Source: Streptomyces sp. R302 (GTDB taxonomy: Bacteria > Actinomycetota > Actinomycetes > Streptomycetales > Streptomycetaceae). From it: a DNA stretch of 64,000 bases. Of the stretch, positions 30,420-44,844 are shown in pieces; position 1 is the stretch's first letter, and each line of letters opens with the position of its first letter. The DNA lies in the NCBI RefSeq assembly GCF_012927245.1, contig NZ_JABBGE010000002.1:62001-126000 (forward strand), written 5' to 3'. The translations under genes and the position numbers were made by a program. The notes below the pieces were generated by a model. It saw only the letters and a program-made list of their open reading frames with translations, ran no database searches and had not been told where the DNA came from.

Positions 30420-30663
30420 TCGTACGTTCTACACCGCGGCCGCTGCCGGTGATGCAGTGGACAGAGCTGGCTCCGTCCGCCGGAATGGGCTCCGGCACAA
30501 CTTCCGTGATGTCGGGCCGATCTCCGGTCCGACATCGTCGTCGAACCCCTGCAAGGCTGACCGCCCCTCCGTGCCGGAGGGGCGCCTTCGTCATGTCCAA
30601 GCACGAGAAAGGGCCTTGCCCCTACCCTGGCGATGTCGAGCCGGTCAGAGAAGGAGCAAGGCC

Positions 30664-31917
30664 ATGTCGTCTCATGCTACCCCCGACCCCTACGCCAGCC
30701 CGATCGCTTTCGGGCAGCGCATGCAGATCCTCCGGGAGCGGCGGGGCATGACCCGCCAGGTGCTCGCGGGCCTCCTGGGCCGGTCCCCCGATTGGGTCAA
30801 GTCCGTCGAGGCCGGCCGCATGCAGGCACCGGGCCTGGAGATGGTCTACCGCATCGCCGAGGCGCTGCGCGTACGTGAGCTGGCCGACCTCACCGGACAT
30901 GGCGAGCACACCGTGAACCTCTTCACCGGGCCCGGGCACCCCCGTCTCGGGGCCGTACGCGAGGCGATCGAGCAACTGTCGCTCGGCACCGCGGGCAACC
31001 CGCCGCCGACCCCCGCCCACCTCGCGGCGCGCCTGGAGGTGGCATGGACCGCCCGGCACAGGGCACCCGATCACCGCGACCGGATCGGCGCCATACTCCC
31101 GGGCCTGATCCGAGATGCCCAGCTCGCGGTGGAGCACGCCGAGACCCCGAGCGACTGGCGCGCCGCCCAAGCCGTCTTGGCCGAGACGTATTCCCTGGCG
31201 CAGTTCTTCCTCGCGTACCAGCCTGACGCCTCCCTGCTGTGGCGGGTCGCAGAACGGAGCATGGTCGCGGCCCGGCAGTCCGGGGACCCTCACGCTGTCG
31301 GGGTCTCCGCGTGGCTCCTCGCCCAGGCCCACCGGGACACCGGCCCCAGTCACTACGATGCGGCGGACGACATCACCGCCCAGGCGATCGAATACCTGGA
31401 GCCTCTCTTGCCCGACGCCGACGCCACGGTGCTCGCCGTGGCGGGTGCCCTCCAGTTCGAGGCCGGTTACACCGCCGCCAGACGCGGTGCCACGGCCACC
31501 GCCTGGAGTCGCTGGGACACCGCCCGGGAGATGGCGGAACGGCTCCCCGAGGGCTACTACCACCCCATCACCAGCTTCTCCGAGGCGATCATGGGCGCCC
31601 ACGCCGTGACCGTCGCGGTCGAGCTGCACCAAGGGGCGGAGTCCGTGCGGCAGGCGGCCCGCGCCGACGCCACCACCATCCCGTCCAGGCCTCGCCGCGC
31701 GCGCCACCGCATCGAGGAGGCCCGTGGCTACCACCTCGACGGACAGCCGGACGTCGCCCTCGCAACTCTGGCGATGGCACACGAGGCGGCCCCGGAGACG
31801 ATCCGCTACAACGGGTACGCCCGCAGCATCCTCCTGGAGGCATGCGAGTCCAAGGTCACCTCCCGTCGGCGCCGCGCATCCGAACTCGCTGTCGAGATGG
31901 GCCTCTTGGCCGCCTGA
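30664..31917 (+). CDS. XRE-type helix-turn-helix regulator with TPR-like C-terminus, graspetide-cluster associated
   Basis: 417 residues starting MSSHATPDPYASPIAFGQRM with AAGGAG 8 bases upstream. N-terminal XRE HTH at about residues 16-75 (LRERRGMTRQVLAGLLGRSP, DWVKSVEAGR), then about 320 residues of helical repeats of the kind seen in streptomycete XRE/TPR regulators that sense small ligands or peptides. It precedes the graspetide genes by 86 bases on the same strand and ends with helix-rich RRRRASELAVEMGLLAA. Likely the cluster's own regulator. Confidence 0.85.
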   Translation: MSSHATPDPYASPIAFGQRMQILRERRGMTRQVLAGLLGRSPDWVKSVEAGRMQAPGLEMVYRIAEALRVRELADLTGHGEHTVNLFTGPGHPRLGAVREAIEQLSLGTAGNPPPTPAHLAARLEVAWTARHRAPDHRDRIGAILPGLIRDAQLAVEHAETPSDWRAAQAVLAETYSLAQFFLAYQPDASLLWRVAERSMVAARQSGDPHAVGVSAWLLAQAHRDTGPSHYDAADDITAQAIEYLEPLLPDADATVLAVAGALQFEAGYTAARRGATATAWSRWDTAREMAERLPEGYYHPITSFSEAIMGAHAVTVAVELHQGAESVRQAARADATTIPSRPRRARHRIEEARGYHLDGQPDVALATLAMAHEAAPETIRYNGYARSILLEACESKVTSRRRRASELAVEMGLLAA

Positions 31918-31957
31918 CGAGGGGGAGGATTCCTACCCTCACCCCTCTTTCACCGCC

Positions 31958-31996
31958 CCTACCGTCGTGTGTACCGCAGGTCACGCCGACGGTAGG
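31958..31996 (+). promoter_or_regulatory. perfect 10-bp inverted repeat reaching the ribosome-binding site of the DUF6415 gene
   Basis: CCTACCGTCG and CGACGGTAGG, separated by 19 bases. The right arm overlaps the TAGGGAG ribosome-binding site of the gene starting at 32004. It could be a DNA operator for the adjacent XRE regulator, or an mRNA hairpin masking the ribosome-binding site of the first graspetide-operon gene. Confidence 0.6.
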
Positions 31997-32003
31997 GAGC
32001 GAG

Positions 32004-32468
32004 ATGTCTGAGCAGATCCAGCACGTCAGGCCGCACGAGAACACACGGGCCATCCCCATCGGGAGCCTGCTCCTGGAGGACGGCCCGTCGGTAGACCGGC
32101 GCGCTGAACGGCTCGCCGAGGGGACCATCCACCGCGTCCTCGCGATGCGGGACCACCCCGGCGAGGCCGAGCTCGCCCGCATCACGAACGACTTGCTCAC
32201 CTACTGCACCGTCCTCGCCAACGGTCTCGACACCGTTCCCGACGGTGACCTGTGCACGCGCGGTCAGGCCGCCCTCGTCGCGTGGGACCAGCTGCGGACG
32301 GACGGCCCGGCCGACGGGCCCCTGGGCACGTGGTCCTACCCCCGGCACCTCGCGCACTGCGCCCGGGACATGATGACCGCCATCCGCGAGTACCGGCAGA
32401 ACGCTGCGTCCGCAGCGCGGTTCATCGGCCGGACCGTTCTGCCGCCCGTCGCCACGGACACTCCGTGA
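32004..32468 (+). CDS. DUF6415-family protein of natural-product clusters
   Basis: 154 residues starting MSEQIQHVRPHENTRAIPIG, with TAGGGAGCGAG directly upstream. Helical, with features recalled from DUF6415 family natural-product biosynthesis proteins: LLEDGPSVDRRAERLA, LARITNDLLTYCTVLANGLD and LAHCARDMMTAIREYRQ. Biochemical role unknown. Its stop overlaps the start of the 27-residue membrane peptide (GTGA), so the two are translationally coupled. Opens the graspetide biosynthetic set. Confidence 0.72.
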   Translation: MSEQIQHVRPHENTRAIPIGSLLLEDGPSVDRRAERLAEGTIHRVLAMRDHPGEAELARITNDLLTYCTVLANGLDTVPDGDLCTRGQAALVAWDQLRTDGPADGPLGTWSYPRHLAHCARDMMTAIREYRQNAASAARFIGRTVLPPVATDTP

Positions 32469-32548
32469 CGGAGCGCTGGCGGCAGGCCCTGTACTTCCTC
32501 ACCGTCCTCGCGATCCTCGCCGCTCTCGTCTACGGCATCGCCCACTGA
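32465..32548 (+). CDS. 27-residue single-membrane-span peptide, translationally coupled
   Basis: GTG start overlapping the DUF6415 stop by 4 bases. The peptide begins VTERWRQALYFLTVLA and continues as an uninterrupted hydrophobic stretch to GIAH: a basic N-terminus and one helix of about 18 residues. No known family. The coupling (GTGA) and hydrophobicity support real translation; position between the DUF6415 gene and the precursor suggests a role in the graspetide system. Could be an immunity, export or membrane-anchor peptide. Confidence 0.55.
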   Translation: MTERWRQALYFLTVLAILAALVYGIAH

Positions 32549-32622
32549 CTCCCTTCACGGCGGCTGCCGGCTGCCGTCGAACGGGTGCACAACGCCAAGA
32601 ACACCAACAGAGAGAGGGCCCC

Positions 32623-32904
32623 ATGTCCGCATTGATCGCCGAGCGCGCCCCCACCGTTTCCCACGACATCAGCACCGCGCCGACCGGGCCCGTGGCCACC
32701 CGGCCGTTCGGGCTCGACTCGCTCACCGGCCTCGCCTCCGTGTCCGGCCGCCGACCGCTCCTCGGCGTCGACCCCATCACGCAGCTCTCGCTCGTCGACG
32801 GCCGCCCGGCGATCGACACCCCGGGCATGAACGGCACCGCGTGCAACACGGAGAGCGACGGGCGCGACGCCATCGCGGTCGACTACGACCAGAACGACGA
32901 CTGA
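32623..32904 (+). CDS. tgmA: graspetide (ATP-grasp-modified RiPP) precursor peptide
   Basis: 93 residues starting MSALIAERAPTVSHDIST. Leader includes ATRPFGLDSLTGL (residues 25-37), like the conserved leader helix recognised by graspetide ligases. The likely core is the C-terminal ~30 residues from DTPGMNGTACNTESDGRDAI to the acidic end VDYDQNDD. Candidate acceptors Thr66, Thr72, Thr76, Ser78 and donors Glu77, Asp79, Asp82, Asp87, Asp89, Asp92, Asp93 are clustered there. An Asp79-Gly80 pair is a plausible aspartimide site. Stop overlaps the ligase start by one base. RBS is AGAGAGAGG. Confidence 0.85.
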   Translation: MSALIAERAPTVSHDISTAPTGPVATRPFGLDSLTGLASVSGRRPLLGVDPITQLSLVDGRPAIDTPGMNGTACNTESDGRDAIAVDYDQNDD

Positions 32905-33905
32905 TGCCCCCCTCGGGACAGAGCACGCGCGGCGGATCCTCGCCGCGCGTGCTCGTCGTCACCTTCGCCCTCGACCCCACCGCGGACTACGTGCTCCGCG
33001 AACTCAACCGCCGCGGCGTCCCGTTCTGGCGGACGGACCTCGCCGGCTTCCCCGCGCACACCCGTCTGTCCGCCGCGCTCGGATCGTCCGGCCGCTGGGG
33101 CGGCACCATGCGGGGCGACGTCCACGGCATCGACTTGTCCGAGCTGCGTGCCGTCTGGTGGCGCAAGCCCACCCCGTACGCCTTCCCCACGACCATGAGC
33201 GAGCCCGAGCAGCGCTTCGCCCGGACCCAAGCCAAGCACGCTCTTTCCGGAGTCCTCGGTTCCCTTCCTGATGTGCTCTGGGTCAACCGCCCTGAGGCGA
33301 ACGCGGACTGCACCAAGCCCCGCCAGCTTGCCGTGGCGGTGGAGTCCGGGCTGCACGTCCCGGAGACCCTGATCACCAACGAACCGGCCGCAGTCGCCGA
33401 GTTCGCCGAGCGCGTCGGTGGACCGGTCATCACCAAAGTCCTCGGCGGGATCGTCCACACCGAGGACGGCAAGCGGGGTCAGCTCTACACCCGCCGGGTG
33501 CCGCCCGAACAGTACGCGGACTCGCGCATCGCCCTGACCGCTCACCTGTTCCAGCGCGAGATCACGGACAAGGCGTACGAGGTGCGCGTCGCGGTCGTCG
33601 ACGGGCAGCTCTTCCCGGTGGCCGTCCACGCCGCAGCCGGCCCCGAGCAGCTCGACTGGCGGCGCGATTCCGCCGGCCACTCCTACAGTGCGGTCACGAT
33701 GCCCGACCCCGTACGCGAGGGCGTCCGCGTGATGATGCGACGCCTGGGGCTCGTCTACGCCGCGCTGGACTTCATCGTCGACAGCCGCGGCACGTACTTC
33801 CTCATCGACGTCAACCCCAACGGCCAGTGGGCCTGGATCGACCTGACCCGCGACGCCATCACCCACGCGCTCGCCGACCTCCTGGAGAAGGGCCACCCCC
33901 GATGA
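32904..33905 (+). CDS. tgmB: ATP-grasp graspetide ligase (macrolactone/lactam-forming peptide maturase)
   Basis: 333 residues starting MPPSGQSTRGGSSPRVLVVT. It is an ATP-grasp ligase of the MvdCD/TgmB type: the N-terminal pre-ATP-grasp domain (LVVTFALDPTADYVLREL, RAVWWRKPTPYAF) then the ATP-grasp domain (VITKVLGGIVHTEDGK, LFQREITDKAYEVRVAVVDG, and the metal-binding C-terminal strand DFIVDSRGTYFLIDVNPNGQ). It activates Asp/Glu side chains with ATP and joins them to Ser/Thr/Lys side chains of the precursor. The start overlaps tgmA by one base and its stop overlaps tgmC by four. Confidence 0.93.
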   Translation: MPPSGQSTRGGSSPRVLVVTFALDPTADYVLRELNRRGVPFWRTDLAGFPAHTRLSAALGSSGRWGGTMRGDVHGIDLSELRAVWWRKPTPYAFPTTMSEPEQRFARTQAKHALSGVLGSLPDVLWVNRPEANADCTKPRQLAVAVESGLHVPETLITNEPAAVAEFAERVGGPVITKVLGGIVHTEDGKRGQLYTRRVPPEQYADSRIALTAHLFQREITDKAYEVRVAVVDGQLFPVAVHAAAGPEQLDWRRDSAGHSYSAVTMPDPVREGVRVMMRRLGLVYAALDFIVDSRGTYFLIDVNPNGQWAWIDLTRDAITHALADLLEKGHPR

Positions 33906-35080
33906 CAGCCCACGACCTCGACACCGAGGCGTCCACCGCCCGGGCGCAGCTCACCCAGTCCCTCGCCGACGCCGGCGTCATCACCGATCCCGCCTGGCGT
34001 GCGGCGTTCAGGGAGGTCCCCCGGCATCTCTTCGTACCCGCCTTCTACGATCACACCGGCCGGCTCATCCGCGGGGACGACCCTGGTACGGCGGCGGAAT
34101 GGTTCGCAGCCGTACACGACGACCGTCCCCTGGTCACCCGTCGAACCGACGGAGTCGCCACCTCGTCGAGCACGGAGCCCTCGCTCATGGCCGAGATGCT
34201 GCACGCCCTGGACGTCGAGGACGGCATGCGTGTCCTGGAGATCGGCACCGGCACCGGGTACAACGCCGGGTTGCTCGCCCACCGCCTCGGGGGTGCCCAG
34301 GTCGTCACCGTCGACCTCTCCCCCGACATCACCGGGCCCGCGCGGGCCCACCTCGCGGCCGCCGGCCTCTCACCGTTCGTCGTCACGGGGGACGGTGTCG
34401 ACGGCTGGCCGTCGGGAGCGCCGTACGACCGGATCATCGCCACGTGCAGGCTGCACGCGATCCCGCTTCCGCTGCTTCAGCAGCTCACGGCCGATGGTCT
34501 TCTCCTCGCCCCGCTCGGCGGCGCGCTTGCGCTCCTGCGCCGCACCGGGTCCGACGCCGCCGAGGGGCGCTTCCTGTCGCGCGCGTTCTTCATGGCCATG
34601 CGGCGCGGCGGGGCCGACACCGGGGTCAGCCGACGGCCCCCGCTGCCTGAGGGCCGCGCCCGGCAGTCCTCGGTGGGCGCCTCGCTCCTCGCCGACAACG
34701 ACTTCCGGTTCCTCGTCAGCGTCGTCGCCCCTGGCCTCGTGTGGCAGTACGACCTCACCCAGGAGGGGAAGCCGGAGGCAGCGCGGGTCTGGGCGCCGGA
34801 CGGATCGATCGCCTCGCTGGCCGCTGACGGTTCCGTACGGGAGGCGGGTCCGCGCCGTCTGTGGGCGCTGATCGAGGACGCACACGACGTGTTCGTCGAC
34901 GCGGATTCGCCCGGCCCCGGCCGATACGGGGTGAGCGTGACGGGACCGGAGCAGCGCGTCTGGCTCGACGAGCCCGGCGGGCACGGCTGGGGCCTGATCG
35001 GCAGCGGGACCGTCCCACCACCTCCAGCAGCATGCGGGCGGCCGGCCGCGGCGCGCGATCCGCGGCATGGCTGGGGATGA
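33902..35080 (+). CDS. tgmC: graspetide-associated PIMT-like O-methyltransferase
   Basis: 392 residues starting MTAHDLDTEASTARAQLTQS. It is homologous to protein-L-isoaspartate O-methyltransferase: FREVPRHLFVPAFYD, the SAM-binding VLEIGTGTGYNAGLLAHRLG and APYDRIIATCRLHAIPLPLL. In characterised systems (ThfM of fuscimiditide) such enzymes methylate an Asp side chain in the cyclised core, which then collapses to an aspartimide. ATGA overlap with tgmB. After about residue 365 (GWGLIGSGT) the last ~24 residues are Pro/Ala/Arg-rich and may be read-through, because the gene's 3' end overlaps an acetyltransferase remnant. Confidence 0.88.
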   Translation: MTAHDLDTEASTARAQLTQSLADAGVITDPAWRAAFREVPRHLFVPAFYDHTGRLIRGDDPGTAAEWFAAVHDDRPLVTRRTDGVATSSSTEPSLMAEMLHALDVEDGMRVLEIGTGTGYNAGLLAHRLGGAQVVTVDLSPDITGPARAHLAAAGLSPFVVTGDGVDGWPSGAPYDRIIATCRLHAIPLPLLQQLTADGLLLAPLGGALALLRRTGSDAAEGRFLSRAFFMAMRRGGADTGVSRRPPLPEGRARQSSVGASLLADNDFRFLVSVVAPGLVWQYDLTQEGKPEAARVWAPDGSIASLAADGSVREAGPRRLWALIEDAHDVFVDADSPGPGRYGVSVTGPEQRVWLDEPGGHGWGLIGSGTVPPPPAACGRPAAARDPRHGWG

Positions 35081-35123
35081 CAGTGGCCCGGTCTTCGACT
35101 GGCGCGTAGGCGACGCGGTCTGA
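35067..35123 (+). pseudogene. C-terminal remnant of an AAC(2')-like GNAT acetyltransferase
   Basis: Reading from 35067 in a frame other than tgmC gives DDSGPVFDWRVGDAV then stop. This matches the C-terminus of the intact acetyltransferase at 44308-44844 (TAPLVFDWRDGDAV stop). Only about 15 residues survive, overlapping the end of tgmC. It looks like a fossil of a truncated gene at the right border of the graspetide operon. Confidence 0.6.
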
Positions 35124-35161
35124 GCCCGCGGCGCCCGCCGTCCCGTTTCCCCGGGGCCCGC

Positions 35162-35234: not shown

Positions 35235-35956
35235 GCCGCCCGGCGGTCGTGGCCGGTGGACGGTTCCAGGGAGGCCGTCCAGACGCCGAGGAGGGACGAG
35301 GTCAGTGCGATGGCGAGGGCGAAGCCGGGGGCGCCGAGGCCGCCGGCGAAGAACGCCACCGTCGCGCCGGCCGTCAGGAGCACCCACGCCGCGAGCGCCG
35401 CCTTGCCCCGGCGGCTCAGGAAGAGCCACTGGCGCGGGGCGGCGGGCGGGGCGGCCACCGCGCCCGCCGGGCCGGCCGTCGCCGCCGCCGGGCGCTTGAA
35501 GTAGCCGTACACCAGCCACTCGCCGCACAGCTCCCAGCCCTCCGGCGTCAGTTCGTCCTCGATCCGGGCGCGCCGCCGGCCGGCGATCACCTCGCGGCGG
35601 TACTCCCAGCGGAGCGCCGTGCCGGGGGTGCGGCGGCAGACGAAGCGGCCGAGGGGGTCGAGGGACTCGACCTCCCAGCCCTGGGCGCCGTGCACCGCCA
35701 GCATCCGCCGGTCGTTGAAGATGTCCGTGGTCCAGGTCCAGTGCTCGGCCGCCTCGTCGGGGCCGTCCGGTTCGGGGGCCCGCCCGCCGAGCCGGGCCGC
35801 GAACCCGGCGGCCGGGCCGAACTCCTCCGCGGGGGAGGTGCCGGTCTCGGCGAGGTGGGCCCGCAGGTCCTCCACGGTGGCCTCGATCTGCGCGGACGGG
35901 ACGCCGGCGGCGGCGAGGACCCCGGCCACCTCGGCGAAGTAGGCGTCGTCGTTCAT
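35225..35956 (-). CDS. PadR-operon membrane protein, unknown function
   Basis: 243 residues starting MNDDAYFAEVAGVLAAAGVP. The N-terminal ~60 residues are helical and resemble HAAS-like (DUF1700-type) segments common next to PadR regulators. A middle domain repeats an aromatic pattern (HGAQGWEVESLDPLGRFVCR; TPEGWELCGEWLVYGYFKRP), then two membrane helices lie near residues 185-230 (KAALAAWVLLTAGATVAFFA; PGFALAIALTSSLLGVW). The ATGA overlap with padR indicates one operon. Its 3' end lies in the 23-bp tandem repeat, so the last residues may be variable. Function unknown. Confidence 0.8.
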   Translation of the reverse strand: MNDDAYFAEVAGVLAAAGVPSAQIEATVEDLRAHLAETGTSPAEEFGPAAGFAARLGGRAPEPDGPDEAAEHWTWTTDIFNDRRMLAVHGAQGWEVESLDPLGRFVCRRTPGTALRWEYRREVIAGRRRARIEDELTPEGWELCGEWLVYGYFKRPAAATAGPAGAVAAPPAAPRQWLFLSRRGKAALAAWVLLTAGATVAFFAGGLGAPGFALAIALTSSLLGVWTASLEPSTGHDRRAAAK

Positions 35957-36330
35957 GCGGTGCTTCCCCCTGGTCGTGGTGCGGTGTCGTCGGCCGGCGC
36001 GGTGTGGTCGGCCAGCGCGGTGTCGACGGTGCGGTGGAACTCCCGCCATGCCCGGCTCTCCCCGGCGAGGCGCTCGCGCCCCAGGGGGGTCAGCCGGTAG
36101 TAGCGGCGGCCCGGGCCGCGCTCGGCGGCCCGGAACTCGGCCTCCACCAGGCCCGCCTCCTCCAGGCGGTTCAGTACGGGATAGAGCGTCCCGCCCTTGA
36201 TCTCGCCGAGGCCCGCCTCGGCGAGCGCCTTGGCGATCTCGTACCCGTAACTCTCCCCGTCGGTCAGGCGGGAGAGGACGAGCAGGTCGAGGACTCCCTT
36301 GAGCCAGCTGGATCTGCGGTCTGCGGCCAT
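35953..36330 (-). CDS. PadR-family transcriptional regulator
   Basis: 125 residues starting MAADRRSSWLKGVLDLLVLS. Winged helix of the PadR type: LVLSRLTDGESYGYEIAKAL, EIKGGTLYPVLNRLEEAGLV and RRYYRLTPLGRERLAGE. Short C-terminal helix makes it a PadR-s2-type member. It is first in a two-gene operon with the membrane protein, with which it overlaps by 4 bases, and probably represses that operon via the repeats just upstream (36350-36374). Confidence 0.93.
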   Translation of the reverse strand: MAADRRSSWLKGVLDLLVLSRLTDGESYGYEIAKALAEAGLGEIKGGTLYPVLNRLEEAGLVEAEFRAAERGPGRRYYRLTPLGRERLAGESRAWREFHRTVDTALADHTAPADDTAPRPGGSTA

Positions 36331-36349
36331 GAGCGCATTGCATCACCAC

Positions 36350-36374
36350 CTAGGTAGGAATGCAAGCTAGGTAG
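36350..36374 (-). promoter_or_regulatory. direct repeat CTAGGTAG upstream of padR
   Basis: Two exact CTAGGTAG copies at 36350-36357 and 36367-36374, 17 bp start to start, 20 bases upstream of padR. Candidate autoregulatory site; not the ATGT-ACAT form best known for PadR. Confidence 0.35.
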
Positions 36375-36573
36375 CCGTGGCGAGGTGCTGACCGTGCGAA
36401 ACCGGGCGTCTCAGATAGTAGGAAGTCCGAGTAATTGTGGAGACAGATGCGGGTCCCTGGCCTAGCTTTGTAGGAGCCGAACGTCTCGCTTCATCAGCGA
36501 ATGGCGGTCGAGAGCGCGACGCCCTGTGCAGGCAACCCCTGCGGCGGCGCTCCCCGCCCCTTCCGGCGCCTTC

Positions 36574-36615
36574 GATCACCACTGATCTCCGCACGCCCGG
36601 ATCACCACTGATCTC
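36574..36615 (+). promoter_or_regulatory. duplicated palindrome GATCACCACTGATCTC
   Basis: The 16-base word occurs exactly at 36574-36589 and 36600-36615. Each contains inverted GATCA/TGATC arms around CCAC. The second copy ends just before the AAGGAG site of the small gene at 36632. Candidate operator pair; the remaining 36375-36573 stretch shows no gene. Confidence 0.45.
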
Positions 36616-36631
36616 AAGGAGTCGATCCCCC

Positions 36632-36763
36632 ATGGCCGTTCAGACCGCCCCCCGCGTCCGCCACTCCGCCGCCCGCCCCAGCGACGAGGCCCGGCAGAAC
36701 GCCGCCGCCGCCCTCCAGCGCGCCCTCGACCGCCGCGACAACGGCGGCTCCACCGGCCACTGA
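36632..36763 (+). CDS. 43-residue basic peptide, unknown function
   Basis: Starts MAVQTAPRVRHSAARPSDEA, with AAGGAG 10 bases upstream. Helical central part (ARQNAAAALQRALDRRDNG), no membrane segment or cysteine. Good ribosome-binding site and a duplicated upstream palindrome suggest real regulated expression. It lies 139 bases ahead of leuB with no obvious terminator between, so read-through into leuB is possible. No family recognised. Confidence 0.55.
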   Translation: MAVQTAPRVRHSAARPSDEARQNAAAALQRALDRRDNGGSTGH

Positions 36764-36902
36764 TCCGTCCGGCCGGTCCGGTCCGGTCCAGGCCCGTCCG
36801 ACGTCTGGCCGACGTCTTGTCCGCCGCCCGTCCGGCGTCATCCGTTCGTCCACATGATGGACGTTCCGTGTCAGACGATGGGACGAAGAGTAGGGTGCCG
36901 CC

Positions 36903-37943
36903 ATGTCTCACAGCATCAATCTCGCAGTCATTCCCGGCGACGGCATCGGCCAGGAGGTCGTGGCCCAGGGCCTCAAGGTCCTCACGGCCGCGCTTCCCCA
37001 GGACGTGAAGCTGGAGACCGAGGAGTACGACTTCGGCGCCCGGCGCTACCACGCCACCGGTGAGACCCTCACCGACGCCGACCTGGACTCCCTCAAGAAG
37101 CACGACGCCATCCTGCTCGGCGCGATCGGCGACCCCTCGGTCCCGTCCGGCGTCCTGGAGCGCGGCTTCCTCCTGAAGCTGCGCTTCGCCTTCGACCACC
37201 ACGTCAACCTGCGCCCCTCGAAGCTGCTCCCCGGCGTCGCGACCCCGCTCGCCGGCCAGCCCGCGATCGACTTCGTCGTGGTCCGCGAGGGCACCGAGGG
37301 GCCGTACACCGGCAACGGCGGCACCATCCGCAAGGGCACCGAGCACGAGGTCGCCACCGAGGTCTCGGTCAACACCGCCTTCGGCGTCGAGCGCGTGGTC
37401 CGGGACGCCTTCGCCCGCGCCCAGGCCCGTCCGCGCAAGAAGCTGACGCTGGTCCACAAGAACAACGTGCTGACCTTCGCCGGCCACCTCTGGACCGACA
37501 TCTTCAACCGGGTCGCCCAGGAGTTCCCCGAGGTCACCACCGACTACCTGCACGTCGACGCGGCGACGATCTTCCTCGTCACCGACCCGGCCCGCTTCGA
37601 CGTCATCGTCACCGACAACCTCTTCGGCGACATCATCACCGACCTCGCCGCGGCCGTCTCCGGCGGCATCGGCGTCGCCGCCTCGGGCAACATCAACCCG
37701 AGCCGCGACTTCCCGTCCATGTTCGAACCGGTCCACGGCTCCGCGCCGGACATCGCGGGCCAGGGCAAGGCCGACCCCACGGCCACCGTCCTCTCCGTCG
37801 CCCTCCTGCTGCGCCACCTCGGCTACGAGGCCGAGGCCGCCCGCGTCGAGGCGGCCGTCGAGGCCGACCTCACCGAGCGGGGCGCCACCGTTCGCACGAC
37901 GGACGAGATCGGCGACGCGCTCGCCGCTCGAGTAGCGAGCTGA
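36903..37943 (+). CDS. leuB: 3-isopropylmalate dehydrogenase
   Basis: 346 residues starting [23 protein letters not shown]-dependent beta-decarboxylating dehydrogenase: [43 protein letters not shown], the catalytic lysine in TLVHKNNVL and metal-binding Asp in [35 protein letters not shown]. It oxidises 3-isopropylmalate to 2-oxoisocaproate precursor and, in the citramalate pathway, methylmalate. Length is short of some actinobacterial LeuB but within family range. Ends at a terminator. Confidence 0.96.
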
Positions 37944-37968
37944 CCCGCGCGTCACTGACACCACTCAG

Positions 37969-38001
37969 CAGCCGCCGGGTCTCCCACGCACCCGGCGGCT
38001 G
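37969..38001 (+). terminator. terminator after leuB
   Basis: 12-bp stem CAGCCGCCGGGT / ACCCGGCGGCTG with a 9-base loop, followed by TTCTCG, 26 bases after the leuB stop. The remaining ~187 bases to ilvE hold only its presumed promoter. Confidence 0.82.
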
Positions 38002-38188
38002 TTCTCGTACGGTCGCGGGGTGCCACCATCGACCCCGGACCGCCTCACCCGCCTTTCGTACCCGGGTTCCCACGCGCGATAATCGGACGTGGGCCGCCAC
38101 ATGCGGGAAAGCTCGGACGTCCTAGCAGTCATGCCGGGACGGACGTGGGCGCGGTCCGACACACACAACCGGTGAAGGACAAGCACCC

Positions 38189-39274
38189 ATGACGACGATC
38201 GAGCTCAAGCCCTCCTCCAGCGCGCTGTCCGACGCGGAGCGCGCGGCGATCCTGGCCAATCCGGGATTCGGCCGCCACTTCACCGACCACATGGTCACCG
38301 TGCGCTGGACCGAGGGCCGCGGCTGGCACGACGGCCAGCTCGTGCCGTACGGCCCGCTCTCCCTCGACCCGGCGACCAACGTGCTCCACTACGCCCAGGA
38401 GATCTTCGAGGGCCTGAAGGCGTACCGCCGCCCCGACGGCTCGGTCGCCTCCTTCCGCCCGGACGCCAACGCCCGGCGCTTCCAGCGCTCCGCGCACCGG
38501 CTCGGCATGCCCGAGCTGCCGGTCGAGACCTTCATCGAGGCCTGTGACGCGCTGGTCCGCCAGGACGAGGCCTGGGTCCCGGAGCACGGCGGCGAGGCCT
38601 CCCTCTACCTCCGCCCGTTCATGATCGCGACCGAGGTCGGCCTGGGCGTCCGCCCGGCCAACGAGTACCTCTTCGTCGTCATCGCCTCCCCGGCCGGCCC
38701 GTACTTCCCCGGCGGCGTCAAGCCGGTCTCCATCTGGGCCTCCGAGGACCGCGTCCGCGCCGTCCCCGGCGGCATGGGCGACGCCAAGACCGGCGGCAAC
38801 TACGCGGCCTCCCTGCTCGCGCAGGCCGAGGCGGCCGCCAAGGGCTGCGACCAGGTCTGCTACCTCGACGCGGTCGAGCACAAGTGGGTCGAGGAACTCG
38901 GCGGCATGAACCTGTACTTCGTGTACGGCAACAAGATCGTCACCCCGTCCCTGAGCGGCTCGATCCTGGAGGGCATCACCCGCGACTCCCTCCTCAAGCT
39001 CGCCGCCGACCTCGGCCACGAGGTGGAGGAGGCCCGCGTCTCCATCGACCAGTGGCAGGCCGACACCGCGAACGGCACCCTCACCGAGGTCTTCGCCTGC
39101 GGCACCGCCGCCGTCATCACCCCGGTCGGCACGGTCAAGTCCGCCCGGGGCGAGTGGCAGCAGTCGGGCGGCGAGCCCGGCGAGGTCACGATGAAGCTGC
39201 GCGAGGCGCTGCTCGCCATCCAGACCGGCAAGGCCGAGGACGCCCACGGCTGGATGCACGAGCTCGGCAAGTAG
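38189..39274 (+). CDS. ilvE: branched-chain amino acid aminotransferase
   Basis: 361 residues starting [20 protein letters not shown]. Fold-type IV PLP transaminase of the eukaryote-like BCAT branch: [18 protein letters not shown], the PLP lysine in [33 protein letters not shown] and the phosphate-binding [10 protein letters not shown]. It performs the last step of Val, Leu and Ile synthesis and the first of their breakdown. Own transcript, starting after the leuB terminator; AAGGAC upstream of the ATG. Confidence 0.95.
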
Positions 39275-39286
39275 CCGCTCCGTCGG

Positions 39287-40720
39287 TCACTCCGACGCCA
39301 CCAGGGCTTCCGGGGCTTCCGGGTCCGTCACGGTCCCGGGAGCCCCGCGCGGCGTCAGGGCGGCGTACAGCGCGCCGCCCACCACGCCCGACAGCACGAA
39401 GCTGCAGTCGACCCCGCCGGTCAGGGCCAGCAGCGGACCCTCGTACAGCGGGGTGGAGACCGCCGCCAGGCCGACCGCCGCGCCGAGCCCCCAGGAGGCG
39501 GTGGCGCGCGGGTGCCAGCCGGCCGCGTACCAGTAGATCCCGCCGCGCGAGCGCCGGTTGTAGACCTGGAGCGCCTCGGGGTCGTACTCCCCGCGGCAGC
39601 GGGCGTGCCCGATGAGGGTGATCACCGCCCACGGGGTGCCGATCGCCGTCAGGAGCAGGACGAACGAGGTCATCGCCGACTGGGCGTCCGAGGCGAAGTG
39701 GCCGAGGAAGACGAAGCCGGTGGCGACCGCCGCCACCACGACGGTGGCCCGCGCCCGGGTGGCCCGGGGCAGGATCGCGTCCAGGTCCAGGCCCATCGAG
39801 TAGAGCATCAGACCGGCGTTGCCGACCGAGCCGGCGGTGGCGGCGAGGAGCAGCGGGACCAGGTACCAGCCGGGGGAGACGGCGACCAGCGGCCCCGCGT
39901 AGTCGAGGCCCGCGCGGGCGGCCAGCGCCGTGTACGTACCGAAGAGCTGGGGCACGAGCAGGCCGACGAGGAGGCCGAGCCAGGTGGCCCGGCGGACGGC
40001 GCGGGCGCTGTGCCGGGCCGGGGAGACGTAGCGGGTGTAGTCGCCGAGCAGGGTGATGAAGGCGACCGGGCCGCTGAGCCCCGCGGCGACCGCCGAGAGC
40101 AGCCAGGTCGGCCAGAAGGAGCCGAGCAGGTACGGGGTGTCCGGCGCGGGCGCCGCGGTGAAGTCGCCGGCGTACGCGACGAGCCCGAGGGCCAGCAGGG
40201 CGGTCATGCCCACGGCGAGCCCCTTGCTGAGCCGCAGCAGCAGCCGGTAGCCGTACACGGCGCCCACCGCCGTGCAGGCCGCGAGCAGCGCGTAGACGAG
40301 GGCGTGCGCGCCGTCCCCGGTGGACGCCCCGGTGAGCCGGGCGAGCACGCCCACGACGACGTCGCCGCCGATCCACAGGGTCAGGGCGGTGTAGCCGAGC
40401 GAGAGCAGCAGCCCCACCACCGAGCCGACGAGCCGGCCGCGGACGCCGAAGAAGGCGCCGGAGGAGGTGGAGAGGTTGGTGGCGGTACGCAGCGAGACCA
40501 GCGCCAGCGGGGCGGTGACGGCGACGCCGACGAGGGTGCCGGCGACCACGGAGGTCACCGAGCCCCACAGGCCGAGGCCGAAGGAGACCGGCAGCCAGCC
40601 GAAGACGATCACGCCCAGGCAGAGGTTGGAGCCGAGCAGGATCGCGACGAGGTCGCGGGGGCCGCTGGTGCGTTCGGCCTCGGGGATGGTGTCGACTCCG
40701 TGCTGTTCGATCGTCGCCAT
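39287..40720 (-). CDS. NCS1-family permease (cytosine/purine/allantoin type)
   Basis: 477 residues from the ATG at 40720 (MATIEQHGVDTIPEAERTSG), chosen for a GGAGG site 6 bases upstream. About twelve hydrophobic segments; NCS1 features are LLGSNLCLGVIVFGWLPVSF in TM1 and SGPVAFITLLGDYTRYVSPA in the middle. NCS1 proteins import cytosine, uracil, hydantoin, allantoin, thiamine or purines with H+ or Na+. Divergent from the urease-like operon and sharing its paired operators, so the substrate is probably nitrogenous and handled by those enzymes (inference). Convergent with ilvE. Confidence 0.87.
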   Translation of the reverse strand: MATIEQHGVDTIPEAERTSGPRDLVAILLGSNLCLGVIVFGWLPVSFGLGLWGSVTSVVAGTLVGVAVTAPLALVSLRTATNLSTSSGAFFGVRGRLVGSVVGLLLSLGYTALTLWIGGDVVVGVLARLTGASTGDGAHALVYALLAACTAVGAVYGYRLLLRLSKGLAVGMTALLALGLVAYAGDFTAAPAPDTPYLLGSFWPTWLLSAVAAGLSGPVAFITLLGDYTRYVSPARHSARAVRRATWLGLLVGLLVPQLFGTYTALAARAGLDYAGPLVAVSPGWYLVPLLLAATAGSVGNAGLMLYSMGLDLDAILPRATRARATVVVAAVATGFVFLGHFASDAQSAMTSFVLLLTAIGTPWAVITLIGHARCRGEYDPEALQVYNRRSRGGIYWYAAGWHPRATASWGLGAAVGLAAVSTPLYEGPLLALTGGVDCSFVLSGVVGGALYAALTPRGAPGTVTDPEAPEALVASE

Positions 40721-40750
40721 GGGACCTCCGGGGGAGCGGAAGGGATGTTT

Positions 40751-40834
40751 TTGAGTGGCGCTCAATGTGACCCGCGCCTGACGGGCGAGTCAATACTTGG
40801 AAGCATTCCGTCCAGCATTTAGAGTGTCGCTCAA
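40751..40834. promoter_or_regulatory. two palindromic operators in the permease/urease-like divergent promoter
   Basis: TTGAGTGGCGCTCAA (40751-40765) and TAGAGTGTCGCTCAA (40820-40834): 15-bp words with TTGAG/CTCAA arms sharing 13 of 15 bases, 69 bp apart start to start. One lies by each divergent gene. A GntR-, TetR- or MarR-like repressor could bridge them; no regulator gene is adjacent. Confidence 0.65.
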
Positions 40835-40850
40835 ACAGGAGGTGCATGAC

Positions 40851-41549
40851 GTGCGACTGACCCCCACGGAGCGCGACCGGCTGCTGCTCTTCGGCGCCGC
40901 CGAGCTCGCCCGGGCCCGGCGGGCCCGCGGCCTTCGGCTCAACGTCCCCGAGGCGACCGCCCTCGTCGCGGACACCGTCTGCGAGGCGGCCCGCGACGGC
41001 CGGAGGCTCGCCGAGGCCATCGAGGCGGCCCGCTCCGTCCTCGGCCCCGAGGACGTGCTGCCCGGCGTCGCCGACGTGGTGACCGAGGTCCACGTCGAGG
41101 CCGTCTTCGACGACGGCTCCCGGCTCGCCGTCGTCACCGACCCGATCGGCGGGGGCACGCTCGGCGCAGGCGCGCCCGGCGCGCTGCTCCCCGGCCCCGG
41201 CCACCCCGAGCCGGAGCCCGCGCTCACCCTCGCCGTACGCAACACGGCGACGGTCCCGGTCAGCGTCACCTCCCACTTCCACTTCTTCGAGGCCAACCCG
41301 CGCCTCGACTTCGACCGCGCCGCCGCCTACGGCATGCGCCTCGCCATCCCCGCCGGCGCCTCCTTCCGCTTCGACCCCGGCGGCGCCGCCGAGGTCGGGC
41401 TCGTGCCCATCGGCGGCGCCCGCGTCGCCATCGGCTTCGCCGGCCTCGTCGACGGGCCGCTGGACGCGCCCGGCGCGAAGGCGGAGGCCCTGCGGCGCGC
41501 CGCCGCCTGCGGCTACCTGGGCGTCACGGCCCCGAAGGAGGACGACTGA
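40851..41549 (+). CDS. ureAB: urease gamma/beta fusion-like subunit
   Basis: 232 residues from a GTG at 40851 (VRLTPTERDRLLLFGAAELA), set by AGGAGG 8 bases upstream. Residues 1-95 are UreA-like (LTPTERDRLLLF, RARGLRLNVPEATALVADTV, VLGPEDVLPGVADVV); residues 110-225 are UreB-like (LAVRNTATVPVSVTSHFHFF, FEANPRLDFDRAAAYGMRLA, IPAGASFRFDPGG). In a urease these form the scaffold around the catalytic UreC. Stop overlaps the ureC start (TGATG). No accessory genes (ureDEFG) are nearby. Confidence 0.92.
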   Translation: MRLTPTERDRLLLFGAAELARARRARGLRLNVPEATALVADTVCEAARDGRRLAEAIEAARSVLGPEDVLPGVADVVTEVHVEAVFDDGSRLAVVTDPIGGGTLGAGAPGALLPGPGHPEPEPALTLAVRNTATVPVSVTSHFHFFEANPRLDFDRAAAYGMRLAIPAGASFRFDPGGAAEVGLVPIGGARVAIGFAGLVDGPLDAPGAKAEALRRAAACGYLGVTAPKEDD

Positions 41550-43231
41550 TGGACCCGTACGAGTACGCCTCCGTGCACGGCCCCCGGGCCGGCGACCGGG
41601 TGGTCCTCGGCGACTCCGGACTCGTCGTCCGGGTCGAGGCCGACTCCCAGAAGCCCGGCGAGGAGTTCCTCGCCGGCTTCGGCAAGACCGCCCGCGACGG
41701 CCTCCACCTCAAGGCCGCCGCCGTCCGCGAGACCTGCGACGTCGTCATCAGCAACGTCCTGCTGATCGACGCCGTCCAGGGCATCCGCAAGGTCTCCGTC
41801 GGCATCCGCGAGGGCCGGATCCACGCCATCGGCCGGGCCGGCAACCCCGACACCCTCGACGGCGTCGACGTCGTCGTCGGCACCGGCACCTCGATCGTCT
41901 CCGGCGAGGGGCTCATCGCCACCGCAGGCGCCGTCGACACCCACGTCCACCTGCTCTCGCCGCGGATCATGGAGGCCTCGCTCGCCTCCGGCGTCACCAC
42001 GATCATCGGCCAGGAGTTCGGGCCCGTCTGGGGCGTCGGCGTCAACTCGCCCTGGGCGCTCCACCACGCCTTCAACGCCTTCGACGCCTGGCCCGTCAAC
42101 ATCGGCTTCCTCGCCCGGGGTTCCTCCTCGGACCCGGCGCCGCTGGTCGAGGCGCTCGCAGAGGGCGGCGCCTCCGGCTTCAAGGTCCACGAGGACATGG
42201 GCGCCCACACCCGCGCCCTCGACACCGCGCTGCGGGTCGCCGAGGAGCACGACGTCCAGGTCGCCCTGCACAGCGACGGCCTGAACGAGTGCCTGTCCGT
42301 GGAGGACACCCTCGCCGTCCTGGAAGGCCGTACGATCCACGCCTTCCACATCGAGGGCTGCGGCGGCGGACACGTCCCCAACGTCCTGAAGATGGCGGGC
42401 GTGCCGAACGTCATCGGCTCCTCCACCAACCCCACCCTGCCCTTCGGCCGCGACGCGGTGGCCGAGCACTACGGGATGATCGTCTCCGTCCACGACCTGA
42501 AGACCGACCTCCCCGGCGACGCCGCCATGGCGCGCGACCGGATCCGGGCCGGGACGATGGGCGCGGAGGACGTCCTGCACGACCTCGGCGCGATCGGGAT
42601 CACCTCCTCCGACGCGCAGGGGATGGGAAGGGCCGGCGAGACCGTACGCCGGACCTTCGCCATGGCCGGGAAGATGAAGGCCGAGCTCGGCCCGCTGGAG
42701 GGCGACGGCGCGCACGACGACAACGCGCGCGTGCTCCGCTACCTGGCCAAGCTCACCATCAACCCGGCGATCGCCCACGGCCTCGCCCACGAGATCGGCT
42801 CCGTCGAGGTCGGCAAGCTCGCCGACATCGTGCTGTGGCGGCCCGAGTTCTTCGGCGCCAAACCCCAGATGGTGCTCAAGGCCGGCTTCCCCGCCTGGGG
42901 CGTCACGGGCGATCCCAACGCCGCCACCGACACCTGCGAACCCCTCGTCCTCGGCCCGCTGTTCGGCGCCCACGGCGCCGCCGCCGCGGACCTCTCCGTC
43001 GCCTTCGTCGCCCAGGCCGCCGTCGACCTCGGCGGCGACCGGATGCCGACCCGGCGCCGCCGCGTCCCGGTGCGCGGCACCCGGGGGATCGGCCCCGCCG
43101 ACCTGCTCCTCAACTCCCGTACCGGCTCCGTCCAGGTGGACGACCGCACCGGCCTCGTCTCGCTCGACGGCTCCCCGATCCGCTCCGAGCCGGCCGACTC
43201 CGTCTCCCTGAACCGCCTCTACTTCCTCTAG
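41549..43231 (+). CDS. ureC: urease alpha subunit-like amidohydrolase with divergent substrate loop
   Basis: 560 residues starting MDPYEYASVHGPRAGDRVVL. All nickel ligands are kept by alignment to Klebsiella UreC: His pair DTHVHLL, carbamylated Lys in GFKVHEDMG, His in VALHSDGLNE, His in HIEGCGGGHVPN, Asp in SSDAQGMGRAGE; the flap catalytic His320 (VHDL) and Arg336 align too. But flap Cys319 is Val, and the substrate loop [20 protein letters not shown] is replaced by GQEFGPVWGVGVNSP with a shortening. Thus urease ancestry is clear while urea specificity is doubtful. Followed by agmatine deiminase. Confidence 0.9.
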   Translation: MDPYEYASVHGPRAGDRVVLGDSGLVVRVEADSQKPGEEFLAGFGKTARDGLHLKAAAVRETCDVVISNVLLIDAVQGIRKVSVGIREGRIHAIGRAGNPDTLDGVDVVVGTGTSIVSGEGLIATAGAVDTHVHLLSPRIMEASLASGVTTIIGQEFGPVWGVGVNSPWALHHAFNAFDAWPVNIGFLARGSSSDPAPLVEALAEGGASGFKVHEDMGAHTRALDTALRVAEEHDVQVALHSDGLNECLSVEDTLAVLEGRTIHAFHIEGCGGGHVPNVLKMAGVPNVIGSSTNPTLPFGRDAVAEHYGMIVSVHDLKTDLPGDAAMARDRIRAGTMGAEDVLHDLGAIGITSSDAQGMGRAGETVRRTFAMAGKMKAELGPLEGDGAHDDNARVLRYLAKLTINPAIAHGLAHEIGSVEVGKLADIVLWRPEFFGAKPQMVLKAGFPAWGVTGDPNAATDTCEPLVLGPLFGAHGAAAADLSVAFVAQAAVDLGGDRMPTRRRRVPVRGTRGIGPADLLLNSRTGSVQVDDRTGLVSLDGSPIRSEPADSVSLNRLYFL

Positions 43232-43242
43232 GACCCGCCGAG

Positions 43243-44265
43243 ATGACTTCGTACCGCATGCCCGCCGAGTGGACCCCGCACGAGCGGACCTGGATGGCCT
43301 GGCCCAGCCCCAACCCCACCTTCACCAGCGACGAGGAGCTCGCGGAGGCCCGCGGGGCCTGGGCCGCCGTCGCCCGCGCCGTCCGCCGCTTCGAGCCGGT
43401 GACGATGGTCGTCGCCCCCGGCGACGCCGAGGGCGCCCGGGAACTCCTCGGCGAGGACGTCGAGCTGGTCGAGCGGGAGCTCGACGACGCCTGGATGCGC
43501 GACATCGGCCCCACCTTCGTGAAGGACGCGGAGGGCCGGCTGGCCGCCGTCGACTGGGTGTTCAACGGCTGGGGCGCCCAGGACTGGGCCCGCTGGGAGC
43601 ACGACTCCAAGATCGCCCGCCATGTCGCGGACGCGGCCGAGGTGCCCGTACTGAGCAGCGAGCTGGTCAACGAGGGCGGCGGCATCCACGTCGACGGCGA
43701 GGGCACCGTCCTGCTCACCGACACCGTCCAGCTCGGCTCCGGCCGCAACCCCGAGTGGAGCCGCGAGCAGGTCGAGCGGGAGATCCACGCCAAGCTCGGC
43801 ACCACCCGGGCGATCTGGCTCCCGCACGGCCTCGCCGGCGACTACGGCCTCTACGGCACCCAGGGCCACATCGACATCGTCGCCGCCTTCGCCCGCCCCG
43901 GCACCGTCCTCGTCCACAGCCAGCAGGACCCCCGCCACCCCGACTACGGCCGCTCCCGGCTGTACGCGGACATCCTCCGCGCCCAGACCGACGCCCAGGG
44001 CCGCCCCCTGGAGGTCATCGAGGTCCCCGCCCCCACCGTCCTCACCGACGAGGAGGGCGACTGGGTCGACTACTCCTACATCAACCACTACCTCTGCAAC
44101 GGCGCCGTGATCCTCTGCGCCTTCGACGACCCCCACGACGAGCTCGCCGCCGAGATCTTCCGCCGCCTCTTCCCGGACCGCGAGGTCGTCCTCGTCGACG
44201 CCCGGACGATCTTCGCGTCGGGCGGCGGCATCCACTGCATCACCCAGCAGCAACCCGCGGTGTAG
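43243..44265 (+). CDS. aguA: agmatine deiminase (peptidyl-arginine deiminase-like)
   Basis: 340 residues starting MTSYRMPAEWTPHERTWMAW. Guanidino-group-modifying fold: catalytic Cys near the C-terminus in SGGGIHCITQQQ, catalytic His in YGTQGHIDIVAAF, acidic residues in DDAWMRDIGPTFV and VNEGGGIHVDGEG. Family members hydrolyse agmatine to N-carbamoylputrescine and ammonia. It lies 11 bases after the ureC stop, within the operon. The next enzyme normally needed, N-carbamoylputrescine amidohydrolase, is not present nearby. Only a weak RBS, so translation is likely coupled. Confidence 0.92.
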   Translation: MTSYRMPAEWTPHERTWMAWPSPNPTFTSDEELAEARGAWAAVARAVRRFEPVTMVVAPGDAEGARELLGEDVELVERELDDAWMRDIGPTFVKDAEGRLAAVDWVFNGWGAQDWARWEHDSKIARHVADAAEVPVLSSELVNEGGGIHVDGEGTVLLTDTVQLGSGRNPEWSREQVEREIHAKLGTTRAIWLPHGLAGDYGLYGTQGHIDIVAAFARPGTVLVHSQQDPRHPDYGRSRLYADILRAQTDAQGRPLEVIEVPAPTVLTDEEGDWVDYSYINHYLCNGAVILCAFDDPHDELAAEIFRRLFPDREVVLVDARTIFASGGGIHCITQQQPAV

Positions 44266-44307
44266 GTGCCACGGCGCCGATCAGGGCCGGTGGGGCCTGC
44301 CGCGGGC

Positions 44308-44844
44308 TCAGACCGCGTCGCCGTCTCGCCAGTCGAAGACGAGCGGGGCGGTCGGGTCGGGCAGGGCGAGTCCGCCGGCCGGGCGGACGAAGACGCCGCC
44401 CTCCTCCTCGGGGAGCGGGACGGTGCCGTCGGGGCCGAGCACCTCGATCCGCCCGCCCCACACCTCCCAGCCGCGCGCGCGGTAGAGCGCCGCGCCCTCG
44501 TCGGAGGCGGAGAGCGCGCCGAAGCGGTGGGTGCCGTCGATCACCCGCTCCAGGGCGTCCATGACGGCCCCGCCGAACCCCCGGCGCCGCGCGTCGGCCC
44601 GGACGGCGACGCCTTCCACGTACCCGGTCCGGTACGAGCGGCCGCGGTGCAGCACCCGGCGCTGGACGACGGCCCCGTGGGCGAGGAGCCCGGTCGCGTC
44701 CTCGATCCAGGCGTGGACCCCGCCCAGGGTGTGGTCCCAGTCCTCCGCGGAGAAGTCGCCGTCGAAGGCAGCGTCGAGCAGCGCGCGGACGGCCGTGAGC
44801 CGCTCCGCGCCGAGTTCGTGGGTGGGTGCGGTCCTCACGGTCAT
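44308..44844 (-). CDS. aminoglycoside 2'-N-acetyltransferase-like GNAT protein, AAC(2')-I family
   Basis: 178 residues starting MTVRTAPTHELGAERLTAVR, chosen over an upstream start because GGGAGGG precedes this ATG. Close family resemblance to mycobacterial AAC(2')-Ic: FDGDFSAEDWDHTLGGVHAW, the acetyl-CoA loop TGYVEGVAVRADARRRGFGG, ALYRARGWEVWGG and C-terminal VFDWRDGDAV. These enzymes acetylate the 2'-amino group of aminoglycosides; some act mainly on cell-wall or thiol substrates. Divergent from the hydrolase at 44966. A fragment of a second copy lies at 35067. Confidence 0.85.
   Translation of the reverse strand: MTVRTAPTHELGAERLTAVRALLDAAFDGDFSAEDWDHTLGGVHAWIEDATGLLAHGAVVQRRVLHRGRSYRTGYVEGVAVRADARRRGFGGAVMDALERVIDGTHRFGALSASDEGAALYRARGWEVWGGRIEVLGPDGTVPLPEEEGGVFVRPAGGLALPDPTAPLVFDWRDGDAV

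Follow-up and report, generated by a model that had tools for sequence, protein, structure and literature searches.

The window analysed here, a 64,000-nucleotide stretch of the Streptomyces sp. R302 genome, carries a compact three-gene operon, tgmABC, whose product is very probably a group 13 graspetide (graspimiditide) with cross-links and a modified aspartate, and which represents a small divergent branch of that group. The full reading of this cassette, in which TgmB closes nested esters, TgmC modifies Asp79 of the precursor and an upstream XRE protein is the probable regulator, is in our judgement highly likely to be correct. What an earlier note on this DNA had taken for one complete six-gene operon is made up of two modules: tgmABC and a phage-linked trio of genes encoding the XRE protein, a DUF6415-like protein and a 27-residue membrane peptide.

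Gene organization and family assignment

All six genes lie on the forward strand between positions 30664 and 35080, in one direction as originally described. The trio comprises the XRE regulator gene (30664-31917; 417 aa; HTH_31, E 3.9e-11; PHROG 5823, E 2.9e-101), the DUF6415-like gene (32004-32468; 154 aa; PF19979, E 1.8e-5) and, overlapping it by 4 bases and beginning with a GTG start, the gene of the single-span 27-aa membrane peptide (32465-32548). The regulator had been described as an XRE/TPR protein, but its sequence gave no match to a Pfam TPR family. The graspetide genes are tgmA, encoding the precursor (32623-32904; 93 aa), tgmB, encoding the ATP-grasp graspetide synthetase (32904-33905; 333 aa; TIGR04187, E 1.7e-104), and tgmC, encoding a PIMT/PAMT-type aspartyl O-methyltransferase with a C-terminal domain (33902-35080; 392 aa; TIGR04188, E 1.7e-89). 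The claimed overlaps of 1 base between tgmA and tgmB and of 4 bases between tgmB and tgmC were confirmed. The cassette had been thought to end at 35123; tgmC stops at 35080, and the stop at 35121-35123 is in a different frame and belongs to a copied 3' end of a GNAT-like gene at a rearrangement junction, which accounts for the wrong end.

TgmA, TgmB and TgmC all score under the curated NCBI cut-offs, a point against the assignment, TgmB by 0.6 bits (349.4 bits against 350 for the NCBIfam profile TIGR04187) and TgmA, which matches TIGR04186 weakly, with 18.5 bits against 25. TgmB and TgmC nonetheless show unmistakable homology to the group 13 ATP-grasp and PIMT/PAMT families. TgmB exceeded the cut-off of PF21068, belongs to the MvdC/MvdD-like clade of ATP-grasp synthetases, and has as its nearest PDB relatives the solved graspetide synthetases 5ig8, 7m4s (AMdnB) and 7mgv (CdnC). 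TgmC matches PF01135 (E 6.5e-29), and its AlphaFold model (pLDDT 81) has the two-domain structure 1DL5 as best PDB match (E 6e-16, 352 columns). As in other group 13 clusters, this adjacent PIMT homologue has an extra C-terminal domain of more than 100 residues, a published trait of this enzyme clade. The precursor search found no TgmA relatives in the PDB. The TgmB of the window falls in a separate, well-supported clade, and a second tgmB, from another tgmB clade, is present on contig C19 of the same genome.

Conservation of orthologous cassettes

The comparison set comprised ten loci, namely the window and nine orthologous cassettes (eight from Streptomycetaceae, one from Nocardioides). Both the gene order tgmA-tgmB-tgmC and the 4-base tgmB/tgmC overlap are kept in 10/10 loci, and the conservation of precursor, ATP-grasp protein and PIMT across them is far above chance expectation. 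The leader motif RPFG (TgmA residues 27-30; 32701-32712) occurs in nine of the ten loci and reads RPYG in locus L036, the precursor of which runs two residues past Asp93. The core (residues 72-93, TACNTESDGRDAIAVDYDQNDD; 32836-32901) follows the consensus [TS]x[CS]xTESDGx(5-6)[VIL]DxDx[NS]DD common to the ten orthologous precursors, with T/S72, C/S74, T76, E77, S78, D79, G80, I84, D87, D89, D92 and D93 conserved in every core. Cys74 and the Asp79-Gly80 pair (32857-32862) are present as claimed; position 74 is Cys in eight loci and Ser in two, and the Asp-Gly pair, the predicted methylation/aspartimide site, is invariant. Conserved Thr/Ser and Asp residues flank the Asp-bearing loop on both sides in the homologues, a feature by which group 13 is recognized. 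The earlier note had named the lack of a Thr/Ser-Asp/Glu pattern in homologous cores as grounds for giving up its assignment; the pattern is invariant in all ten. Taken together, the family matches, the orthologues, the RPFG leader and the invariant Asp-Gly strongly support its central claim of a graspetide with PIMT-type aspartate modification. A literature search for a description of the TESDG motif, which did not extend to the supplementary tables of mining papers, returned no relevant paper.

Predicted ring topology and aspartate modification

We propose that TgmB would bind the RPFG motif in the leader of TgmA, the tetrapeptide by which the fuscimiditide synthetase recognises its precursor (PMC13003496), and would phosphorylate core aspartates and close nested Thr/Ser-Asp side-chain esters. 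The predicted hairpin has Thr76-Asp89, enclosing a 12-residue loop, and Thr72-Asp93 as its esters, possibly with Ser78-Asp87 as a third, and Cys74 would stand opposite Asn91, probably without a cross-link. This arrangement is the best supported and corresponds to the register i+j=165, in which three donor-acceptor rungs are conserved throughout the ten cores, the maximum of all registers. In fuscimiditide the esters join Thr3 to Asp22 and Thr7 to Asp18 and the C-terminal stem reads DVEKD (PMC12291112, PMC13003496); the spacing of T72...T76 and D89-QND-D93 in TgmA equals the 4-residue spacing of fuscimiditide. The core is compatible in its register with a fuscimiditide-type topology of two nested, 4-residue-spaced Thr-Asp esters around a 10-12-residue loop, a compatibility that does not make the connectivity itself readable from sequence. 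Loops in published members span 10-12 residues. Two observations count against the proposed arrangement: a Ser78-Asp87 rung leaves a loop of 8 residues, under the published lengths, and the invariant Asp92 has no partner in register 165.

Shifting the register to i+j=163 would instead pair Thr76 with Asp87 in an inner ester and Cys74 with Asp89 in a thioester. The 10-residue loop so formed equals that of fuscimiditide, residue 74 is always a nucleophile (Cys or Ser), the register is fully conserved if Cys is counted, and Cys is accepted by engineered graspetide synthetases (PMC12291112). We nevertheless regard this pairing as very unlikely, since it leaves the invariant Asp92 and Asp93 unused and sets Thr72 against Asn/Ser91, and the thioesters in the literature found are all engineered.

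With the nested Thr/Ser-Asp esters of register 165 in place, TgmC would methylate the loop residue Asp79 in the already cyclised peptide, and the methyl ester would give an aspartimide with Gly80 that may persist or hydrolyse mainly to isoaspartate. The modified site is Asp-Gly in 4/4 characterised graspimiditides (PMC13001092). The net loss of 18 Da by which the earlier note proposed to recognize the TgmC product is too strict a criterion, because the SsfM product has the mass of its substrate, its aspartimide being hydrolysed to isoaspartate (PMC10787088). Neither protease nor exporter genes are encoded near the cassette, which counts against the reading, and the leader would be removed by a host protease encoded elsewhere.

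Motif change and C-terminal tail of TgmC

The WxxxGxP motif, which RiPP PIMTs commonly but not universally carry near the C-terminus, is replaced by [FY]xxx[GD]xP in 10/10 members of the clade, its Trp being changed to Phe or Tyr; in the window the equivalent position reads F331-VDA-D-S-P337 (34892-34912). This change is not decisive, because the motif is also missing from several other graspetide PIMTs in our sample and a review figure legend speaks of 'most'. The Trp is required in TceM and dispensable in LihM. In addition, the TgmC of the window ends in about 27 extra residues (34994-35080; pLDDT <50) that all orthologues lack and that result from the rearrangement junction into which the gene runs. 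Both features could be read as signs that TgmC is inactive or an isoaspartate repair enzyme, which would leave a graspetide without the aspartate modification. We consider this most improbable: the substitution occurs in the whole ten-member clade, in which the PIMTs are conserved, the EIGTGTGYNA and TSSSTEPS regions for SAM binding are preserved, and Asp-Gly is invariant in the cores paired with these enzymes. The clade-wide Trp to Phe/Tyr change provides natural variants for probing substrate recognition by PIMTs.

The upstream XRE-DUF6415-peptide trio

The trio, defined by a PHROG 5823 XRE gene, a DUF6415-type gene and a 26-34-aa membrane peptide with a 4-base overlap, is found in the window and also in Streptomyces phage Chymera and prophage-like loci. 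The DUF6415-like protein scores 25.9 bits against PF19979, just short of the gathering score of 27.5, and has a 41% homologue in gp25 of phage Chymera. A spurious reading frame can be rejected for the 27-residue peptide, as a membrane peptide with the same 4-base overlap follows 8/8 DUF6415 homologues and Chymera gp25, against 2 of ~587 other gene ends. The view that a complete TgmABC operon includes the XRE, DUF6415 and peptide genes as essential parts is not supported, and an ancestral six-gene operon can be rejected as a family trait: the DUF6415 and peptide genes are absent from all nine orthologous cassettes. They form a phage-linked companion module that encodes no biosynthetic enzymes. 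The XRE protein encoded upstream probably regulates the cassette, in line with its homologues before other tgmABC genes (67%, directly upstream, in G055 and 37% in G046) and with the recurrence of the XRE family upstream of unrelated graspetide clusters. The XRE pair known from groups 11 and 13 consists of an HTH fused to DUF5753 and a DUF397 partner; no match to either DUF was found in the XRE protein, the DUF6415-like protein or the 27-residue peptide, and a literature search for DUF6415 gave no relevant paper.

It is doubtful, though a real possibility, that the six genes work as one operon in which the 27-residue peptide serves the graspetide in export, immunity or signalling. They are co-directional, with a 74-bp gap free of terminator-like sites, and lie within one block that is missing from relatives. 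Regulators of the same XRE family stand before tgmABC in G055 and G046, and in G046 the space between the XRE gene and tgmA encodes a small membrane peptide related to that of the window (E 5.8e-6). Against this, 0/9 orthologous cassettes carry the DUF6415 and peptide genes, and eight DUF6415-peptide pairs, like phage Chymera, have no adjoining tgmABC. Promoter and terminator scans returned nothing. It seems unlikely that the XRE and 27-residue peptide genes are a portable control module shared by Streptomyces phages and graspetide clusters, with a real role in the latter (peptide sensing, export or tolerance, for example); if they were, graspetide loci would take part in phage-host exchange.

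Insertion at a rearrangement junction

Synteny with the close relatives G004, G015 and G006 shows that the whole 4.6-kb block containing the cassette (30462-35090) is missing from them and sits at an inversion breakpoint. Alignment identified junction scraps on both sides: an inverted copy of 44231-44265, a gene end by the inversion breakpoint, at 30429-30461, and an inverted copy of 44293-44340 at 35091-35136. The latter 46-bp scrap is the GNAT-like gene 3' end (...VFDWRDGDAV*) left at the junction, with the stop at 35121-35123. A phage-borne graspetide was rejected, as viral contigs have no tgmB relative and phages carry only remote RimK-like ATP-grasps. Plasmid tgmB genes are at most 44% identical among the matches listed. 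A prophage at the site was also rejected (no tRNA within 20-45 kb), as was a defence system, the PADLOC matches being to generic HTH and methyltransferase domains only.

Implications and comparison with known systems

This work adds a coherent ten-locus branch to the graspimiditides, of which the proteins in the window fall under all three automatic naming cut-offs, and its core conservation is high enough to predict ring connectivity and the modified residue. It also illustrates that neighbouring genes which a reader would assign to an operon may belong to a module of their own, linked to phages, whose membrane micropeptide has been overlooked.

Phage Chymera gp24-gp25 resembles the upstream trio in its PHROG 5823 XRE gene, DUF6415-type gene and unannotated 27-aa peptide with a 4-base overlap, whereas in the phage these genes are flanked by lysin and integrase, and graspetide genes are absent. 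The families and gene order of SAV_5884-type tgmA/tgmB/tgmC (TIGR04186/04187/04188) match those of the window; in contrast, the three scores here are under the cut-offs and the TgmB clade is separate. SsfA/B/M of Streptomyces sp. F-3, amycolimiditide (AmdA/B/M) and albusimiditide are likewise group 13 systems in which a PIMT homologue modifies an Asp-Gly. The number of links is five in SsfA, where one is proposed to the C-terminus, and four in amycolimiditide, whereas two or three are predicted here. Fuscimiditide (ThfA/B/M, Thermobifida fusca) shares the precursor, ATP-grasp and PIMT genes, the RPFG leader, the C-terminal Thr-x3-Thr ... Asp-x3-Asp stem and the modified loop Asp. The product of the window would differ from it in a predicted loop of 12 rather than 10 residues, in the TESDG loop motif and Cys/Ser74 in the stem, and in the extra conserved Ser78, Asp87 and Asp92, which could allow a third link.

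Gene organization and family assignment

The region holds six genes, all co-directional: an XRE regulator-like gene (30664-31917), a DUF6415-like gene (32004-32468), a gene for a 27-residue membrane peptide (32465-32548), and tgmA, tgmB and tgmC (32623-32904, 32904-33905 and 33902-35080), which encode the precursor, the ATP-grasp synthetase and the PIMT-like methyltransferase. The overlaps of 1 and 4 bases within tgmABC are seen in the sequence. All three proteins score under the cut-offs of their families, namely TgmA against TIGR04186 (18.5; cut-off 25), TgmB against TIGR04187 (E 1.7e-104, 349.4 bits; cut-off 350) and TgmC against TIGR04188 (E 1.7e-89, 300.7; cut-off 380), so automatic annotation with these models would miss all of them. 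The points of interest are a directly testable ring topology, an altered PIMT motif and a phage-linked front module.

Distribution of the tgmABC cassette

Genome searches identified nine orthologous tgmABC cassettes beyond the window, with TgmB 59-76% identical (loci L056, L041, L032, L058, L033 from Nocardioides speluncae, L061, L034, L035 and L036). The TgmB clade (support 100/99) holds these, the window and the looser relatives L042, L062 and L063. It is an uncommon clade: out of 395 Streptomycetaceae genomes sampled, 9 carry a TgmA relative, a distant one only in the two weakest cases, and a phylum-wide sample of 396 genomes contained no precursor relative except the window's own. The 4-base tgmB/tgmC overlap is present in all ten cassettes; surroundings differ among most of them, with one neighbour common to L034 and L035. 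We place the window cassette in group 13 of the graspetides, as a divergent sub-branch. A second graspetide cluster in the same genome (C19:129863-130783), with a PWG leader motif and Asp-Gly within the core, belongs to another clade, its TgmB being 42% identical. At L042 and L062, which hold close TgmA/TgmB relatives, the PIMT gene is non-adjacent, 4-6 kb off, and the cores are without the TESDG motif.

Origin of the inserted block

The block 30462-35090 was not found at the corresponding place in three related genomes (G004, G015 and G006), in which 35350-44265 (mapped in full in G004 and G015) has the opposite orientation, adjoining a TetR gene. In the window this segment is inverted. The cassette sits at one of the breakpoints, with a short inverted copy of sequence from 44231-44340 on either side of it (30429-30461 and 35091-35136). 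The signature is that of an inversion of ~9 kb (the leuB-ilvE segment) in which short stretches were duplicated at the ends and 4.6 kb was inserted at one of the breakpoints. The six genes therefore already formed one block when the present arrangement arose, and the rearrangement changed the last tgmC codons, although the arrangement in the window may instead be an assembly error. The tgmC stop lies at 35080. Position 35123, where the earlier note had ended the cluster, is a stop within 35091-35136, a 46-bp inverted copy of a gene's 3' end; the gene is putatively GNAT-like, and its intact copy terminates near 44308.

Phage-linked genes upstream of the cassette

Of the six genes that the earlier note read as one complete operon, the DUF6415 and membrane peptide genes fall outside the conserved tgm unit. 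Along its whole length the XRE protein matches PHROG 5823 (E 2.9e-101), and its relatives (71-81%) occur in two viral contigs and at L074, which we read as prophage-like from its lysin- and integrase-like neighbours, a label backed by the annotated order lysin, XRE, DUF6415 homologue, integrase in phage Chymera. In this phage, DNA-binding gp24 accompanies the DUF6415 homologue gp25 (41%), whose stop is overlapped by 4 bases by the unannotated peptide VNEWQRQALYCLIVLGMLAALCLGIAP (KU958700 19936-20019). A membrane peptide with a 4-base overlap follows the DUF6415 homologues of other Streptomyces in 8 of 8 cases (L073-L080), compared with 2 among some 587 ends of other genes. These peptides and that of the window form a single-span family of 26-34 residues, usually with XRE ahead. 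At L073 a 178-residue unknown protein ending ...CGPINPGNCATHGGGDDD comes after the DUF6415-peptide pair, 608 to 1144 bases past the DUF6415 gene start.

Members of the XRE family nevertheless recur near graspetide genes. Homologues lie on the same strand ~1.5 kb upstream of other-clade tgmABC genes in G055 (67% identical) and G046 (37%); fewer than 0.1 such pairs are expected by chance, a rough estimate that takes 46 XRE places over 199 genomes, some two tgmB genes in each genome and neighbourhoods of 6 kb. L034 and L035 have upstream homologues (35%) in divergent orientation, and most remaining loci have other XRE or TPR proteins nearby. Because of this recurrence, we think that the XRE protein regulates the window cassette. 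A related membrane peptide (E 5.8e-6; L125 4864-4953, contig C201) is encoded in G046 as well, after a different short gene, downstream of a PHROG 5823-type XRE and upstream of an unrelated tgmABC cluster. At L114 (G165), the same XRE family is followed by two small genes and the start of a PIMT/FxLD-like methyltransferase, which hints at another PIMT-dependent peptide cluster.

Methyltransferase TgmC

TgmC (METHYLTRANSFERASE) is a PIMT homologue carrying an extra C-terminal domain. Its AlphaFold model (nine-sequence alignment; pLDDT 81, pTM 0.80) best matches Thermotoga PIMT 1DL5 (E 6e-16), the structure by which the RiPP-type C-terminal domain is defined (PMC10787088). In place of this domain's WxxxGxP motif (PMC13001092), each of the ten clade members has [FY]xxx[GD]xP. 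The W-to-A change abolished the activity of TceM but not of LihM (PMC13001092), so an aromatic replacement may be tolerated. Asp79-Gly80, the predicted substrate site, is invariant across the ten precursors. The net -18 Da proposed earlier as a mass test is too strict, since intermediates of the related SsfM system (+14, -32, +18 Da) end at zero net change (PMC10787088).

Precursor and predicted ring topology

Comparison of the ten precursors revealed two conserved leader blocks, TRPFGLD and VDPxTQLS, and the core pattern [TS]x[CS]xTESDGx(5-6)[VIL]DxDx[NS]DD; in the fuscimiditide system, RPFG is the tetrapeptide recognised by the synthetase (PMC13003496). Every core has hydroxyl donors at T/S72, T76 and S78 and, beyond the loop, acids at D87, D89, D92 and D93. 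When every antiparallel register was scored for fully conserved rungs, the register with donor and acid positions summing to 165 gave three (72-93, 76-89 and 78-87) and the others two at most, a count that is suggestive rather than improbable because donors and acids are both spaced by two. The one-residue insertion in the L041 core is located in the loop, and in the more distant L063, read by eye, the register is retained with a different set of rungs, 78-87 and 74-91. The resulting TgmA topology is a prediction from sequence to which we give roughly even chances. Fuscimiditide has the links Thr3-Asp22 and Thr7-Asp18 and the stem DVEKD; TgmA positions 72/76 and 89/93 reproduce exactly the 4-and-4 spacing of these links, and the predicted loop of 12 residues is within the published range of 10-12.
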